From assembly GCA_003222155.1 (NCBI GenBank), contig QHUU01000077.1, positions 1-35,921 of the forward strand: a stretch of DNA of 35,921 bases, given 5' to 3'. Below the pieces are notes generated by a model. It ran no database searches. It was not told where the DNA came from and was given only the letters and a program-made list of their open reading frames with translations. The stretch comes from Gemmatimonadota bacterium. Lineage in GTDB: Bacteria > Gemmatimonadota > Gemmatimonadetes > Gemmatimonadales > GWC2-71-9. Positions 17,845-32,560 of the stretch are shown in pieces. A program made the translations under genes and the position numbers. Each line of letters opens with the position of its first letter. Within the stretch, counting starts at the first letter, position 1.

Positions 17845-18684
17845 TCAACTGGCCGCACCGCCCACGGGGGCGTCCACCTCGAAGTAGAAGCGGGTGCCCC
17901 ACTGCGGGCGGGTTTCGACTTGCAATTCGGACCCCATCGCCCGCACCAGCTTGCGGCAGATGGTGAGCCCGAGCCCCGAACTGGAGAAATGCTCGCGCTG
18001 CGCTGCCGGGGGCCGCCGAACGGGTTGATACAAGGTGCGCAGCCGCCCGGCGTCGATGCCGTTCCCCGTATCCCGCACCGAGAACTCGAGGCGCCGGGTG
18101 CCGACCGGCAACGCCGCGATCTCCACGAAGCCCGAGTCGGTGAACTTGACGGCATTCGTGGCCAGGTTGAGCAGCACGCGCGACAGCGCGCGCTCGTGCC
18201 CGGTGCGCCGCTCCGGTACCGGATGCACCAGGCGGACCTCGAGCCGCTTCTCTTCCGCGATGGGAAGAATCATGCTGCGGACCGACCCGAACACCTCGGC
18301 GACCGAAAACGGCGCTGGAGCGCGGTCGACCAGGCGCTGCCCGCCGCGGGCGAGCTCGAGCACATCGCTCGCCGTGGCGCACAGGCACAGCGCGGCACTG
18401 TAGATCAGCCCCAGCTGCCTGGTCTGCTCCGGCGTGACCGGCCCTCCCTGGCCCTGTTGCAGCGCCTCGGCGAGAAACAGGATCGACGTGAGGGGCGAGC
18501 GCAGATCGTGCGCTAACTCCACCACGAGATCCAGGCCGTGCGGGCCCGACAAACACGCCGCCAGATCCGGCGGCTCGGGCTCGGGCTCGGGCGTCTGCTC
18601 GGGGTCGGGAATCCGCTCGGGGACCGCCGCGATGGCGCTCCCGACGGCGGACCAGTCGAGCCGCTCGGCGGTGCTCGTTCTCAC
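17845..18684 (-). CDS. Soluble histidine kinase (PrsK-like partner of the sigma-54 regulator)
   Basis: 279 aa starting at GTG 18684, overlapping the regulator's stop as GTGA. No membrane segment or recognised sensor domain is present, only a Pro/Glu-rich linker (about residues 26-40). The dimerisation helix has ELAHDLRSPLTSIL (His59). The ATPase domain shows the N box NLATNAVKFTDSG, G1 DTGNGID and G2 SSSGLGLTICRKL. It should autophosphorylate and pass phosphate to the receiver of the adjacent response regulator. Lack of a sensor suggests an intracellular signal or a partner protein. In PEP-CTERM/EPS loci such pairs (PrsK/PrsR) act with RpoN. Confidence 0.88.
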   Translation of the reverse strand: MRTSTAERLDWSAVGSAIAAVPERIPDPEQTPEPEPEPPDLAACLSGPHGLDLVVELAHDLRSPLTSILFLAEALQQGQGGPVTPEQTRQLGLIYSAALCLCATASDVLELARGGQRLVDRAPAPFSVAEVFGSVRSMILPIAEEKRLEVRLVHPVPERRTGHERALSRVLLNLATNAVKFTDSGFVEIAALPVGTRRLEFSVRDTGNGIDAGRLRTLYQPVRRPPAAQREHFSSSGLGLTICRKLVRAMGSELQVETRPQWGTRFYFEVDAPVGGAAS

Positions 18685-20321
18685 GCCGGCCGCCCTTCAG
18701 GGGCGCCGGCCGGCGTCTTGTGGGACGCGTCGACGGTCACTACGTCCATCGGCTCCACCAGTTCCGAGGCATCTGGGGCAGAGGCGGGTTCCCGCTCGAC
18801 CACCCATCCTGCCGTCGGACTGCGCTGCAGGCCGTGACGCTCCATCAGCCGGTACAGCGTGGTCCGATCCACGCCGGCGATCCGCGCCGCCTTGGACATG
18901 TTGCCGCTCGCCCGGTTGACCAGCCAGGTGAGGTACTGGCGCTCGAATTGGGCGATCACACGATCGCGGGCGGCGTGATAGCTCTCCTCGAGCAGGGTGG
19001 AGATGAGCGAAGCGGGATTCGAGCCCGCGGCCGGCGTCGGCTCACCGGTGAGCTGCAAGTCCTCGGGGCGGATCTCCGCCCCCGGCTCTACGACCACGGC
19101 GACGTGCTCGATCACGTTCTGCAACTCACGGACGTTGCCCCGCCACGGATGGCCGCACAGCGCGCGCAGCGCGGCGTCGGTGAGGCGCGGGAACGGAGCG
19201 CCCTTCCGGCGGTGCCGCACCCAGTACGTCGACAGGAAGTAATCGGCGAGCAGGGGGATGTCCTCGGGCCGCTCGCGCAGCGCCGGGACGTTGATCGGGA
19301 CGACGCGCAGGCGGTAGTAGAGGTCTTCCCGCATGTCGCTCGTCTCGACGGCGGCTTCGGGGTCACCGTTGGTCGCGGCGATGAAGCGCACGTTCACGAC
19401 GGCGTCCGTCGTCTCGCTGCCCACGCGTCGGACCACGCCGTCTTGGATCACCCGCAGCAGCTTCGCCTGGATCGGCTTCGGCATCTCGATCAGCTCGTCG
19501 AGGAACAGCGTGCCGCCGTTGGCGGCTTCGAGCAGGCCGGGTTTGTCGCGCACCGCACCCGTGAACGCGCCCTTGCGGTGACCGAACATCTCGGACTCGA
19601 GCAGGCCCTCGGGGAGGGCTGCGCAGTTCACGGCGATGAACGGCCGGCTGGAGCGACGGCTGTGGTGATGGATGAACTGGGCGATCATTTCCTTGCCGCT
19701 GCCGCTTTCGCCGGTGATGAACACCGAAGCGTCGGTCGGCGCCACCTTGCGGGCCAGTTCGACCGCCCGCCGGAACGACGGCGCCGTTCCGAGCAGCGTG
19801 ATCTTGTCGGAATGGACCTGCAGCTGGTCCAGCGTATCGCGCTGCTCGCGCGTCTCGCGCGCGACCAGCAGCGTGTGAACCGCTCGCCCGATCAGCACCT
19901 GCAGGTGCGAAGCGGAGAAGGGCTTGGGAAGGTAGTCGAACGCCCCTTGACGCAGTGCTTCGACGCTCGACTCGACGCTGGGATTGCCCGTCATCACGAT
20001 GACCATCGTGTCGTGATTGGTCCCCAGAGCGGTGCGCAACAGGGTGAGGCCATCGACCTGCGACATGTACAGGTCCACGAGCACGAGGTCGAATGCGCGG
20101 CGCTTCAGCAGGTCGAGGGCTTCCTGCCCCCGGCTGCAGACGGTTACGTCGTAGCCTTCGTGGCGCAGAACCGCCGCGCAGCTCTCGCGCAGCGTGTGTT
20201 CGTCATCGACCACCAGAATCCGCACCCGGGCCTTGGCTTCCGGCCCGATGGCGAGCATGGCCGACGGCTCGCGTCCCTCGACGGAGGGGGTCACGCCGTC
20301 ATGAGCAAGCGGTGTCGACAT
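18681..20321 (-). CDS. Sigma-54-dependent response regulator (NtrC/PrsR-like)
   Basis: 546 aa from ATG 20321, with GAGG about 9 nt upstream. An intact receiver domain (about residues 32-145) has Asp39-Asp40, phospho-acceptor Asp83, Thr111 and Lys133. The AAA+ domain has Walker A GESGSGKE (204-211) and GAFTGA (251-256), the loop that contacts sigma-54. A Fis-type helix-turn-helix lies near the C-terminus ([20 protein letters not shown]). A Pro/Glu-rich tail of about 50 residues follows. It should activate RpoN promoters when phosphorylated by the coupled kinase. Its own upstream region has a sigma-54-like element and palindromes at enhancer distance, suggesting autoregulation. Likely targets are the sigma-54-like promoters in this locus. 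Confidence 0.93.
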
Positions 20322-28236: not shown

Positions 28237-28332
28237 ATGACCGATGCAGCGCCCAGCGGGGAGCGGACCGCACGCCGCTCCCCGCGGCGCTCTCCTGATC
28301 GTAGCGACGGTGCGACCACGCCGTACAGTTGA
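28237..28332 (+). CDS. Possible 31-aa small protein with strong ribosome site
   Basis: ATG 28237 follows AGGAGGT (28224-28230) at 6-nt spacing, the best Shine-Dalgarno sequence in the window. The product is Arg/Ser/Pro-rich and matches nothing I recognise. A 14-codon frame (28196-28240) ends on its start as ATGA, and a 36-codon frame begins on its stop as TGATG (28332-28442). Third-position GC looks no higher than the background, which argues against a conserved protein. It may be a leader peptide, a decayed gene or chance. Confidence 0.28.
   Translation: MTDAAPSGERTARRSPRRSPDRSDGATTPYS
28248..28291 (+). other. Strong hairpin downstream of wecB
   Basis: An 11-bp perfect stem (GCGGGGAGCGG 28256-28266, CCGCTCCCCGC 28275-28285, 8-nt loop) is extended by AGCGCC (28248-28253) and GGCGCT (28286-28291), with a two-base bulge on the left. 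No T-run follows, so it is not a classical intrinsic terminator; it could stabilise the wecB mRNA 3' end or pause polymerase. It also lies inside the possible 31-aa ORF. Confidence 0.6.
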
Positions 28333-28350: not shown

Positions 28351-28535
28351 TCCGACCACATCCGGCTCGCCGTGTCGTGCTCTGGACAACACAGATCGGC
28401 CAACGAGGCGCGGCATCCGTCTTGCGATGGGACGCATGGTAGCGTGGGCGCCGCAATGCGGCGCGCCACGACATCATACGGACATGCACGCGGGGAAGCG
28501 GGCCAACTGAGCTGACCATTCGCGGATTGCGTCCA

Positions 28536-28558
28536 CTACGCCGCCGTGCGCGGCGTAG
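28536..28558 (+). promoter_or_regulatory. Hairpin competing with the terminator (antiterminator-like)
   Basis: CTACGCCGC (28536-28544) and GCGGCGTAG (28550-28558) form a perfect 9-bp stem with a 5-nt loop. Its right arm shares bases 28552-28558 with the left arm of the terminator, so only one of the two structures can form at a time. This is the arrangement of transcription attenuators. Confidence 0.5.
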
Positions 28559-28598
28559 GGGGCCCCGGTGGTGGCTCGCTCCCCTGCGCCTTTTTTTT
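28552..28598 (+). terminator. Intrinsic (Rho-independent) terminator
   Basis: GGCGTAGGGG (28552-28561) pairs with CCCCTGCGCC (28581-28590) over 10 bp, one of them a G-U wobble, and the stem is followed directly by eight T (28591-28598). In this GC-rich sequence the T-run is striking. It could end the glmS-export-wecB transcript or a separate leader/sRNA. The sigma-54 promoter lies downstream of it, so rsb expression from 28718 would bypass it. Confidence 0.75.
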
Positions 28599-28717
28599 GT
28601 GCATTACGCTGCGCCCGCGCGCCCCGAAGTGTTGCACAAGCGCCTTCCTCGCACGGTGAGTAGATTTGTAACGCATTTCGGCAGAACCAGTTACTGTAGT
28701 CAGCCGCTCCGACAAGT

Positions 28718-28732
28718 TGGCACTAGCCTTGC
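28718..28732 (+). promoter_or_regulatory. Sigma-54 promoter of the rsb operon
   Basis: TGGCAC (28718-28723), five bases, TTGC (28729-28732) and then T: a complete match to TGGCAC-N5-TTGC with exact GG-N10-GC spacing. The start point near 28744 leaves about 32 nt before ATG 28776, with GAGGAG as ribosome site. It is the best promoter in the window and implies RpoN plus an activator control the operon. Confidence 0.8.
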
Positions 28733-28775
28733 TGTTGCGCCGTAGCAACATTCGACCGGGCGAGGAGCGCCAGCC

Positions 28776-29684
28776 ATGGCCACCAAAGGGAAAGAAGCAC
28801 AGTCGCCGCTGCCCGACCCCCAAGCACAGACGGAATCCACCGCGGCGCTGCTGCGCGAGTTGGTGGCGCACCTCCGGCAGAACCGAACCCAGTTGCGCGA
28901 GGAATGGGCGCGGCGCATCACACGCGCCCAGCTGCTCACGGCGATGACCGAGGAGGAAATCTTCGCGGAAGCGACTTCGGTGTACGACAACTACGTCGAA
29001 GCGTTGGAGACGGGGACGTTCGAGGCCCTCCAGGCCTACGCACGCAACCTGTCCGAGCGCATTATCCCGCGAGGCGTCGAGACACACGAAGTGGTCGGCA
29101 TCGTGCTGCTGTTGCGCGACGTGCTCGCTCGCTCGCTGTTCGGCAAATACCACGAAGATTTCGACAAACTCAACCGCATCCTCGACGCCTACGAGCCGGC
29201 CGCCAACCGTATCGCCAACACGGTGGCGGTGGGCTTCGTGCAGGAGCGCGAGCGCATCATCCGCCAGCAACAGGAGGCCATCCGCGAGCTGTCGACGCCG
29301 GTGTTGCAGGTGCGCGAGCGGCTGCTGATCCTGCCGATCATCGGCGTCATCGATCCGCAGCGCGCGCGGCAGCTCACGGAGCAGCTGTTGCGGGCCATCC
29401 GGACCAACCGCGCCAAGGTCGTCGTCATCGACATCACGGGTGTGGCGGCGATGGACTCGAACGTCGCCAACCACCTGGTGCAGACGGTCGAAGCGTCGCG
29501 CCTCTTGGGCGCGACGGTCATCGTGACGGGTCTCTCGCCGGAAATCGCCCAGACGCTCGTGACGATCGGGGTCGACCTGAGCGAGATGGCGACGGTGGGT
29601 GATCTCCAGGGCGGCATCGAGGAGGCGGAGCGGCTCCTGGGGTACAAGGTCTTGCCACTGGAAGATCTGACCCCGAAGGCGTGA
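28776..29684 (+). CDS. rsbR: RsbR-like stressosome sensor (N-terminal domain + STAS)
   Basis: 302 aa. An N-terminal helical domain (about residues 20-165), like the globin-related RsbR sensor region, precedes a C-terminal STAS domain (about 172-290). In Bacillus RsbRA two Thr are phosphorylated by RsbT: here the first position is Ser228 (MDSNVANHL) and the second is Thr260 (PEIAQTLV). The N-terminal part varies between homologues and is thought to sense the signal. With RsbS it should form the large scaffold that holds RsbT. First gene of the operon, preceded by the sigma-54 promoter; 31 bp separate it from rsbS. Confidence 0.92.
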   Translation: MATKGKEAQSPLPDPQAQTESTAALLRELVAHLRQNRTQLREEWARRITRAQLLTAMTEEEIFAEATSVYDNYVEALETGTFEALQAYARNLSERIIPRGVETHEVVGIVLLLRDVLARSLFGKYHEDFDKLNRILDAYEPAANRIANTVAVGFVQERERIIRQQQEAIRELSTPVLQVRERLLILPIIGVIDPQRARQLTEQLLRAIRTNRAKVVVIDITGVAAMDSNVANHLVQTVEASRLLGATVIVTGLSPEIAQTLVTIGVDLSEMATVGDLQGGIEEAERLLGYKVLPLEDLTPKA

Positions 29685-29715
29685 GGCGGCACCCCACTCC
29701 GTCGACGGAGGGCGC

Positions 29716-30108
29716 GTGGAAGTTCCCATTCTGAAGCAGGGTCACTACCTGATCGCGTCCATCCAGTCCGCGCTCACCGATGCCGATTTGTCGCAGCTGC
29801 GCGAGGCGTTGATCGAGCGCGTGGGGCGGTTTCGTGCGCGCGGCGTCATCGTCGACGTCACGGCGCTCGACGTCATGGATTCGTTCGCCGTGCGGACGCT
29901 GCGCGACATCGCGCACATGGCGCGGCTGCGCGGCGCCGAAACGGTGATCGTGGGCATCCAGCCCGAGGTCGCGTTTGCGATGGTGCAGCTCGGGCTGACG
30001 CTCAAGGGCGTGTCGACCGCCCTCGACCTGGAAGAAGGCCTGGCGTTCCTCAACGTCCAGACCCAGGTCCGCATCGATCGCGGACCGGGACGCCTCGACC
30101 GTGGCTGA
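29716..30108 (+). CDS. rsbS: RsbS-like STAS scaffold protein
   Basis: 130 aa from GTG 29716, with CGGAGGG just upstream. It is a single STAS domain, as in RsbS, starting MEVPILKQGHYLIASIQ. The phosphorylation site is conserved as Ser56 in VMDSFAVRTL, with the acidic residue before it. In the known system unphosphorylated RsbS binds RsbT and keeps it inactive; phosphorylation by RsbT releases it. The Arg/Gly-rich C-terminal tail extends beyond the STAS fold. It overlaps the rsbT start by 8 bp. Confidence 0.93.
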   Translation: MEVPILKQGHYLIASIQSALTDADLSQLREALIERVGRFRARGVIVDVTALDVMDSFAVRTLRDIAHMARLRGAETVIVGIQPEVAFAMVQLGLTLKGVSTALDLEEGLAFLNVQTQVRIDRGPGRLDRG

Positions 30109-30511
30109 CGACTTGCTCATCCCCATCACCGCCGATGTCGATGTCGTGACCGCACGGCAGCGCGGGCGCGACCTAGCCGCCGAAGCGGGATTCTCGAGCG
30201 GCGACCAGACGGTGATCGCGGCGGCCATCTCCGAGATCGCGCGCAACATCCTGATGTACGCCAAGCGCGGCGAAATCGCCCTCAGCTTGGTGGCGAACGG
30301 CGATCGTCAGGGCGTCGTGGTCGTGGCGCGCGACCAGGGGCCCGGGATCCGCGACGTTCCCCGCGCCATGCAGGACGGCTACTCCACGTCCGGGGGCCTG
30401 GGTCTCGGGTTGCCCGGCGCCCGGCGCCTGATGGACGACTTCGACGTGACCTCCGACGCGGGGAAGGGCACCACCGTGACGATGAAAAAATGGCGGCGCA
30501 TGAATGCCTGA
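30101..30511 (+). CDS. rsbT: RsbT-like serine kinase
   Basis: 136 aa from GTG 30101, overlapping rsbS by 8 bp. It has the GHKL ATPase motifs: N box SEIARNIL (about 44-51), G1 DQGPGI, G2 SGGLGLGLPG, and the GTTVTMKKW end typical of RsbT. It should phosphorylate RsbR and RsbS. In Bacillus freed RsbT activates the phosphatase RsbU, but no RsbU gene is present here, so its downstream target is open. It overlaps the rsbX gene by 8 bp. Confidence 0.93.
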   Translation: MADDLLIPITADVDVVTARQRGRDLAAEAGFSSGDQTVIAAAISEIARNILMYAKRGEIALSLVANGDRQGVVVVARDQGPGIRDVPRAMQDGYSTSGGLGLGLPGARRLMDDFDVTSDAGKGTTVTMKKWRRMNA

Positions 30512-31145
30512 GGCGTCCGTGGACGCCTCGACGCTGATCGACTGGGGCGTCGCATCGTCGGCGCTTCCGGGCCAGACGCAGTCCGGGGACTTGCACCTGG
30601 TCAAGCCGGTGTCCACCGGCGTGCTGATCGCGGTCGTGGATGGACTCGGCCACGGCGCGGAAGCGGCCACGGCGGCGCGCACGGCCGTGACTACGCTCGA
30701 CCGGCATGCGTCCGAGTCGGTGTTGGCGCTGCTGCAGCGTTGCCACTGGGCGCTCAAGGGCTCGCGGGGCGTGGTGATGAGTCTCGCCTTCGCCAACCCG
30801 CAGCAGAACGCGCTGACGTGGGCCGGCGTCGGCAACGTGGAGTGCATGCTGTTCCACGGCCACGGGGCGACGTTGGCCAATCTGACGCGCGTCGGCCTGG
30901 TCACGCGCGGCGGCATCGTCGGCTCCGAGCTGCCGCAGGTCCGCGCCCAGATCGTGCCGCTCGCCGCCGGAGACGTGCTGATCTTCGCCACGGACGGGAT
31001 CCGCGAAGGGTTCAGCGACGGGCTGCCGTTCGAGGCACCACCGCAACAACTCGCCGAGCACATCTTGAGCCGACACGGTAAGGGCACGGATGATGCGCTC
31101 GTGCTGGTCGCTCGCTATCGGGGCGGCACCCGGACGGGCGGATGA
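30504..31145 (+). CDS. rsbX: RsbX-like PP2C phosphatase (SpoIIE family)
   Basis: 213 aa from ATG 30504, within the end of rsbT. It has the PPM/PP2C metal-binding motifs: [15 protein letters not shown] (Asp46), FATDGIREG and the late [10 protein letters not shown]. The size fits RsbX (feedback phosphatase that dephosphorylates RsbR/RsbS) rather than RsbU, which carries an extra N-terminal RsbT-binding domain, absent here. Overlap with rsbT and with the activator gene shows that it belongs to the module. Confidence 0.88.
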
Positions 31146-32560
31146 CGCCTCCGATCGGGATGGAGCCCTCGCCTCTGCCCGCGGTGCCGCGGAAGGGGGA
31201 CGCAGCGCGCTTGCGGATTCTCGTGGTGGCCGGTGAAGGCGCGGGCAGCGCCGCCCTGCACCAAAGCCTGCGTCAATGGGCGGACGACGGCCGACTGGAG
31301 GTGGACGCGGCGCCGGATCTGCCGCGGGCTGTGCGTCTGCTGGCGGGCCAGCGGTGGGACGTCGTGCTCGCCGCGCTGGGCGAGCGGCCGGACGAAGAGC
31401 TGGCGTGGTGGGTAGACGCGCTGCGCGCCGCCACGGGCGGCCCGCGGCTCATCGCGGCCGCGCAGACGCCGTCAATGGGACTGGCGCTGCGTGCCGAGAA
31501 GCTCGGCGTGCTCGACGTGCTGGCGTTGCCGCTGCGCCGGGACGACTTGATGCGCGCCCTGGAGCGGCTGCGCTCCGCGGTCGGCGAAGCGACGATCCCG
31601 CTGCCGGTCGTCGAGCATCACGCCGTCGGCCAGTATGCGCTGGTCGGGCAGAGTCCCGCGATGCTCGACGTGTACAAGCTTCTGGCGCGCGTCGCCGCGA
31701 GCACCGCGACCGTGCTGATTCAGGGCGAGTCCGGCACGGGTAAGGAGGTGGTCGCCCGCGCCGTGCACCTGCACGGTCCCAAGGCTTCCGGCGCGTTCGT
31801 GGCCGTGAACTGCGCGGCCATCCCCGAAAATCTCCTCGAGAGCGAGCTGTTCGGCCACGAGAAGGGTGCGTTCACGGGCGCGGTCACGCGCAAGGTCGGC
31901 CGCTTCGAGCACGCCGCGGGCGGGACCCTGTTCCTCGATGAAATCGCCGACATGAGCCTCGCCCTCCAGGCCAAGATCCTGCGGGCGGTCCAGGAGCGGG
32001 AGATCGAGCGCGTGGGGGGCACCGACACGATCCCCATCGACGTGCGCCTCATTGCGGCCACGAACCGCGATCTCAAGGAGGCGATCAAACAGGGCCGGTT
32101 CCGGGAGGATCTGTACTACCGCCTGGCGGTCGTCACGATCCGGCTCCCGAAGCTGGCCGAGCGCGGCGACGATTTGCTGCTGCTCACCGCGTTCTTCATC
32201 CGCCAGTTCGCCGAGCGCTACGGCAAGCGGATCACGGCGATCTCGGACCGGGCACTCGACCTGCTGCGCGGCCACGCGTGGGTCGGGAACGTGCGCGAGC
32301 TGCGCAACGTGATCGAGCGGGGCGTCATCGTCGCGAACGACGACACGCTGCGCGCCGAGCACCTGCCGGACGAGATTCGCGGCGAGGAGGCCGCGCTGAC
32401 GGACCGGCCCCAGGGCGGCCTGCTCACGCTCGCGGAGGTCGAGGCCCGCTACATCGCGCGCGTACTGGCGCACACGAACGGGCAGATCGGCGCGGCGGCC
32501 GAGATCCTCGGCATCCATCGTAACACGCTCACGCGGAAGATGAAGGAGTACGGGTTGTGA
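31142..32560 (+). CDS. Sigma-54 activator with a degenerate receiver-like domain
   Basis: 472 aa starting at ATG 31142, which overlaps the rsbX stop (ATGA). The N-terminal about 140 residues look like a receiver fold that lost its chemistry: the acidic pair is gone (ILVVAGEG), the phospho-Asp position is Ala ([10 protein letters not shown]), and the conserved Lys is replaced by Leu (LALPLRRDD). The AAA+ domain is intact: GESGTGKE (195-202), GAFTGA (242-247), [12 protein letters not shown] and the R-finger region [10 protein letters not shown] Fis-type helix-turn-helix closes the protein ([21 protein letters not shown]). It should activate RpoN promoters but cannot be controlled by Asp phosphorylation, so control by the Rsb proteins or by the TPR protein is plausible. 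Autoactivation of the promoter at 28718 is possible. Confidence 0.9.

Follow-up and report, generated by a model that had tools for sequence, protein, structure and literature searches.

Between wecB and the rsb operon lies a conserved structured RNA, which we consider likely, with a probability of roughly 0.6, to represent a new sigma-54-dependent small RNA (sRNA) family whose terminator would also form a boundary between the exopolysaccharide genes and the rsb operon, itself under sigma-54 control. This reading draws on a conserved, covarying structure, on the family of copies that share it, on the enrichment of sigma-54 motifs upstream of these copies, on the T-tract, and on the presence of rpoN. 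All coordinates refer to the forward strand of the window, i.e. the whole stretch of 35,921 nucleotides that was analyzed.

A conserved three-helix RNA

The sequence-only reading of this region had singled out two hairpins, A and B. When the intergenic DNA was used to query relatives, however, the peak of identity fell on a block starting at about 28484 and not on these hairpins. The aligned copies have the blocks TGACC-AT-NCGCGGATTGCGT and CCCC-G-RTGGTGGC in common; a variable hairpin separates the two, and the outer strands are complementary. A covariance model was built from seven copies (R1) and enlarged to 16 (R2). The R2 model detected 22 copies in 12 genomes, all of them in one family of soil Gemmatimonadota, and in a class-wide draw of 394 genomes matches were confined to that one family. 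In the window, R2 matched positions 28492–28584 (91.6 bits, E 1.8e-14) and revealed no further copy above noise; the exact closing-stem pattern had no match elsewhere in the same genome. The search of Rfam 15 at the gathering score showed no family match in the window, and at relaxed E-values there were just two sub-threshold, chance-level matches in the window (E 3.6 and 7.5) and none on the element in 15 loci carrying other copies. Pattern matches outside Gemmatimonadota (in Acidobacteria and others) and on one viral contig were not matched by the covariance model; all of these are therefore regarded as chance matches. We also considered a MITE-like mobile repeat and rejected it, because copies within the same genome are strongly divergent and their similarity is restricted to the RNA.

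The conserved RNA (28489–28588) is composed of three stacked helices. The 5′ strand of the closing helix P1 (CGCGGGGAAGCGGGCC, 28489–28504) is paired with 28573–28588 in the minimum-energy fold. The conserved internal loop and the 5′ strand of P2 (AACTGAGC TGACCATTCGCGGATTGCG, 28505–28531) follow; in P2, ACCAT..CG.GG pairs with CCCCGGTGGT. In type-1 copies the sequence TGACC..CGCGGATTGCGT changes little or not at all, while its flanks vary. Hairpin A (28536–28558) is the apical part of P3, with a variable, covarying sequence, and the 3′ strands of P3, P2 (GGGGCCCCGGTGGT) and P1 (GGCTCGCTCCCCTGCG) occupy 28559–28588, as judged from the R2 match and the minimum-energy fold. For the window copy, this single-sequence fold agrees with P1 and P3 and not with P2, whose assignment rests on comparison. 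P1 is followed by CC and then by U8 (28591–28598), which is the layout of an intrinsic terminator with P1 as its stem. This T8, placed directly after stem B as the sequence-only reading had it, is the only run of at least seven T or A in the 35.9 kb window, and a T-rich tract is found at the equivalent place in all 10 rsbR-linked copies. The GTGC directly after the tract (28599–28602) is conserved at the aligned rsbR loci, even where the conserved RNA is absent.

The 22 aligned sequences showed 94.6% of cells paired and compensatory changes in 17 of 27 base pairs (74 cells), as befits a conserved RNA secondary structure, in an alignment that was fitted to the covariance model and hence favours the modelled structure. 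All five covariation measures exceeded those of shuffled alignments (0/500 as high on any of them), and sliding the partner by 1–3 columns as a control reduced pairing to 43–58%. When the first seven copies were aligned independently with MAFFT, the same picture emerged, with 96.8% paired and compensatory change in 8 pairs. Compensatory changes were seen in 7/11 modelled pairs of P1 and in 5/7 pairs of helix 3; the sequence of the internal loop hardly changes from copy to copy. Covariation backs the closing, middle and apical helices together and not as alternatives to one another. The energetics of the window copy depended on the stretch folded. Positions 28500–28620 alone showed no extra stability relative to shuffles (z −0.3), whereas 28481–28598, which adds the upstream strand, gave z −2.8, with 1 of 200 shuffles as good. 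This difference indicates that the coordinates originally proposed for the element omit its 5′ half.

Promoters, terminators and genomic settings of the copies

The RNA is preceded by a sigma-54-type promoter, CGGCATCCGTCTTGCG (GG-N10-GC, 28411–28426; score 18.5 of 21), which ends about 62 nt before P1 and predicts a transcription start near 28437. Orthologues of this promoter keep the GG and GC and vary in the spacer, and those in G024, G072 and G073 have the fuller form TGGCAT-N5-TTGCT. A 5′ leader hairpin with one bulge (CGTGGGCGCCGC/GCGGCGCGCCACG, 28443–28470), read from the sequences, also occurs in G001 (two copies) and G006 with wobble changes that preserve pairing.

Within 100 nt upstream, a sigma-54 match of at least 18.5 of 21 was present in 14/22 copies versus 0.9% of 5802 control stretches drawn from the same loci; copies within an orthologous group do not count as independent of one another, but about eight separate loci contribute to this enrichment. 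At a score of at least 19.5 the numbers were 8/22 copies and no control, and the eight copies outside the 14 had no match at the lower score either. The scoring consensus follows what is generally known of sigma-54 promoters, and the cut-offs were set once the first copies were known, so that the enrichment, although strong, was not established blind. A gene for a Sigma54_DBD protein, and hence rpoN, is present in each of the six genomes tested. The order promoter, RNA, terminator was observed at seven rsbR loci and at L077 and L123. Behind the L077 copy come ACGACCC..GGGTCGTTTTCG and another sigma-54 box, behind the L123 copy GGCGTCGA..TCGACGCCTTTCGTTTT, and both loci have a separate terminator; several other copies have no obvious one. 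At L082 988–1597 (the L125 site), three tRNA genes immediately precede the copy, separated from it by the copy's own sigma-54 box.

The upstream gene, wecB (UDP-GlcNAc 2-epimerase), ends an exopolysaccharide cluster that also holds a sigma-54 response regulator (18684–20321). Shortly after wecB there is a perfect 11-bp hairpin (GCGGGGAGCGG/CCGCTCCCCGC, 28256–28285), near copies of which follow wecB in several relatives (G001, G006, G008, G024, G072); its stem is similar to that of the closing helix in the RNA family, yet all of the conserved loops are missing. On the other side, the rsbR operon has its own sigma-54 promoter (TGGCAC-TAGCC-TTGCT, 28718–28733; score 20.3 of 21), nearly identical at 17/17 rsbR loci examined, and the element lies upstream of it, as the sequence-only reading had correctly placed it. 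An alignment of 17 rsbR upstream regions revealed a conserved TGTTGCAC-type site at 28627–28644, a probable activator site. The dyad TGTTGC-N6-GCAACA (28733–28750), present at 17/17 aligned rsbR loci, overlaps the −12 element and the start region of the rsbR promoter and could be a repressor or activator operator. The operon (28776–32560) encodes partner-switching proteins, namely RsbR-like and RsbS-like STAS proteins, an RsbT-like kinase and a SpoIIE-type phosphatase, followed by a sigma-54 activator (Sigma54_activat with a Fis HTH) and not by sigma-B. The activator standing in the place of sigma-B suggests that the rsb module is wired to sigma-54.

Several observations argue against the sRNA reading. 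The copies at L125, L128, L129 and L085 have no obvious U-tract. The rsbR copies of G009, G077 and G075 have no strong sigma-54 box and start 30–70 nt after an upstream gene, so that there they would be pieces of a 3′ UTR. Five RNA-free members of the genus that have the rsb operon carry a plain terminator and no copy. Elsewhere, where genes other than those of the window were named from their translations without a family search, copies precede genes for proline dehydrogenase, a sorbosone-dehydrogenase-like protein, a response-regulator/GGDEF-like protein or an aminotransferase, or stand alone. The proline dehydrogenase leaders (L126, L122, L127 and L124, genus g16) have no sigma-54 box; these four form an RNA sub-type with a GGTGGATTGTGTC core. 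At L080, a start codon follows the copy after about 40 nt.

Because some copies are thus in 5′ UTRs, the main rival explanation is a cis-acting leader, riboswitch-like or protein-binding, that controls the downstream gene and, at rsbR, the read-through of a sigma-54 or wecB transcript into the rsb operon. The copies before the four proline dehydrogenase genes, the sorbosone-dehydrogenase-like gene (L080), the response-regulator/GGDEF-like gene (L085) and the aminotransferase gene (L130) are 40–120 nt upstream of start codons on the same strand, and a near-invariant internal loop within covarying helices is typical of aptamers. The RNA also resembles attenuators and terminator-type riboswitches in being an intergenic, structured RNA with conserved loops ahead of a U-tract. 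It differs from them in that most copies have their own promoter upstream and in that a second sigma-54 promoter separates the RNA from the gene in every rsbR copy. Moreover, a consistent alternative pairing involving the T-tract, or a conserved antiterminator, was looked for and not found, and the downstream genes share no common pathway. At L129 (the L084 site), a convergent gene faces the copy, which leaves no downstream gene on its own strand to be controlled in cis. We consider this explanation rather unlikely, although copies may act as leaders in cis, those in 5′ UTRs above all, and cis and sRNA uses may coexist.

The region might instead hold no more than the terminator that ends the wecB/exopolysaccharide unit, in which case the structure would simply be a strong stem followed by U8. 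The closing stem before U8 is indeed GC-rich, and relatives without the RNA (G002, G003, G005, G007 and G008) have an ordinary terminator hairpin of stem, T-run and GTGC at the equivalent position. These terminators, however, have neither the conserved loops nor the three-helix fold, a plain terminator has no need of the invariant internal-loop sequence, and at other loci the U-tract is often missing from copies that retain the loops, which makes this explanation improbable.

Hairpins A and B as parts of one fold

According to the sequence-only reading, hairpins A and B are mutually exclusive and form an attenuator, with stem B as the terminator state. The hairpins exist as described. Stem A (CTACGCCGC/GCGGCGTAG, 28536–28558) has nine Watson-Crick pairs and a 5-nt loop, stem B (GGCGTAGGGG/CCCCTGCGCC, 28552–28561/28581–28590) has 10 pairs, including one U-G, and a 19-nt loop, and bases 28552–28558 are common to both. 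Perfect hairpins of this kind are at chance level in the GC-rich window and not special: there are 4 of at least 9 bp, compared with 0–6 in ten first-order Markov resamplings.

The proposed switch did not withstand folding of the full element, in which stem A had pair probabilities of 0.97–1.0 and stem B of 0.0; the minimum energy was −59.5 kcal/mol and became −53.8 kcal/mol with stem B enforced, a cost of 5.7 kcal/mol. The true partner of the stem B 3′ arm is the upstream strand 28489–28495, which was absent from the earlier description. The ensembles of 8/9 related sequences paired this arm with the upstream closing strand, and G072 was the only one for which the thermodynamic model left its pairing ambiguous. 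The 10/10 pairing of stem B was found in this genome alone. In nine related same-locus sequences, the 10 nt before the T-tract had a best partner of 5–9/10 at shifting positions within the zone originally considered, and no 10/10 partner in that zone. Conservation of both stems in relatives had been named beforehand as what the switch depended on. The helix of stem A covaries, but stem B shows no compensatory changes and is not conserved, and with it falls one of the two conserved, exclusive structures by which an attenuator or riboswitch is recognized.

Hairpins A and B are pieces of one larger fold, and the zero probability of stem B and its lack of a conserved 10/10 partner indicate that they are not states of a conserved switch. 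An attenuator is therefore hardly credible, even though stem B offers 10 pairs without mismatch abutting U8 in this genome, because its 3′ arm is taken up by the longer closing helix. What does stand is a structured RNA of regulatory type, with an intrinsic-terminator-like U8, between wecB and the rsb sigma-54 promoter.

A candidate sigma-54-dependent small RNA

Under the sRNA reading, the conserved element would be the body of an RNA of about 160 nt (predicted 28437–28598), which sigma-54 RNA polymerase probably transcribes from the promoter at 28411–28426 when an enhancer-binding protein is active. The RNA would form a single long hairpin of three helices, interrupted by a conserved, asymmetric internal loop, and transcription would stop at U8 behind the closing helix. 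The conserved loops would then be free to bind a protein or, acting in trans, target mRNAs. The same terminator would insulate the rsb operon, itself served by a separate sigma-54 promoter, from transcription of wecB and the exopolysaccharide genes.

Proteobacteria have sigma-54-dependent sRNAs that end in intrinsic terminators, a feature predicted for the window RNA as well; CrcZ, which depends on CbrB, is one of them. GlmY, activated by QseF, and Qrr1–5, activated by LuxO, are further examples (PMC6075780, PMC10162802). According to these two papers, GlmY and Qrr1–5 are short, structured RNAs with a sigma-54 promoter directly upstream, like the window RNA, and are controlled by enhancer-binding proteins, as is predicted for it. 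By this analogy, GlmY, Qrr and CrcZ may be its closest functional counterparts. No sequence kinship is claimed: the window RNA belongs to another phylum, has no sequence or structure match to them in Rfam, folds as a single long three-helix hairpin, and has some copies in mRNA leaders. We also considered a published leader RNA of the sigma-54/PEP-CTERM regulon and set it aside, since PMC9850573 mentions neither a hairpin nor a small RNA, and the literature searched contained no work on regulatory RNA in this Gemmatimonadota lineage.

The RNA is absent from the families of Rfam 15 and looks previously undescribed. Its covariation and the sigma-54 promoters that accompany the family make it a concrete sRNA candidate in a common soil phylum. 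More tentatively, its copies may make up a lineage-specific family of sigma-54-transcribed RNAs, in part free-standing sRNAs and in part mRNA leaders, that is tied to a stressosome-like RsbRSTX module controlling a sigma-54 activator and not sigma-B. With the RNA next to a partner-switching operon whose last gene encodes a sigma-54 activator, a regulatory circuit suggests itself that would lead from a stress signal through the sigma-54 activator to the RNA.
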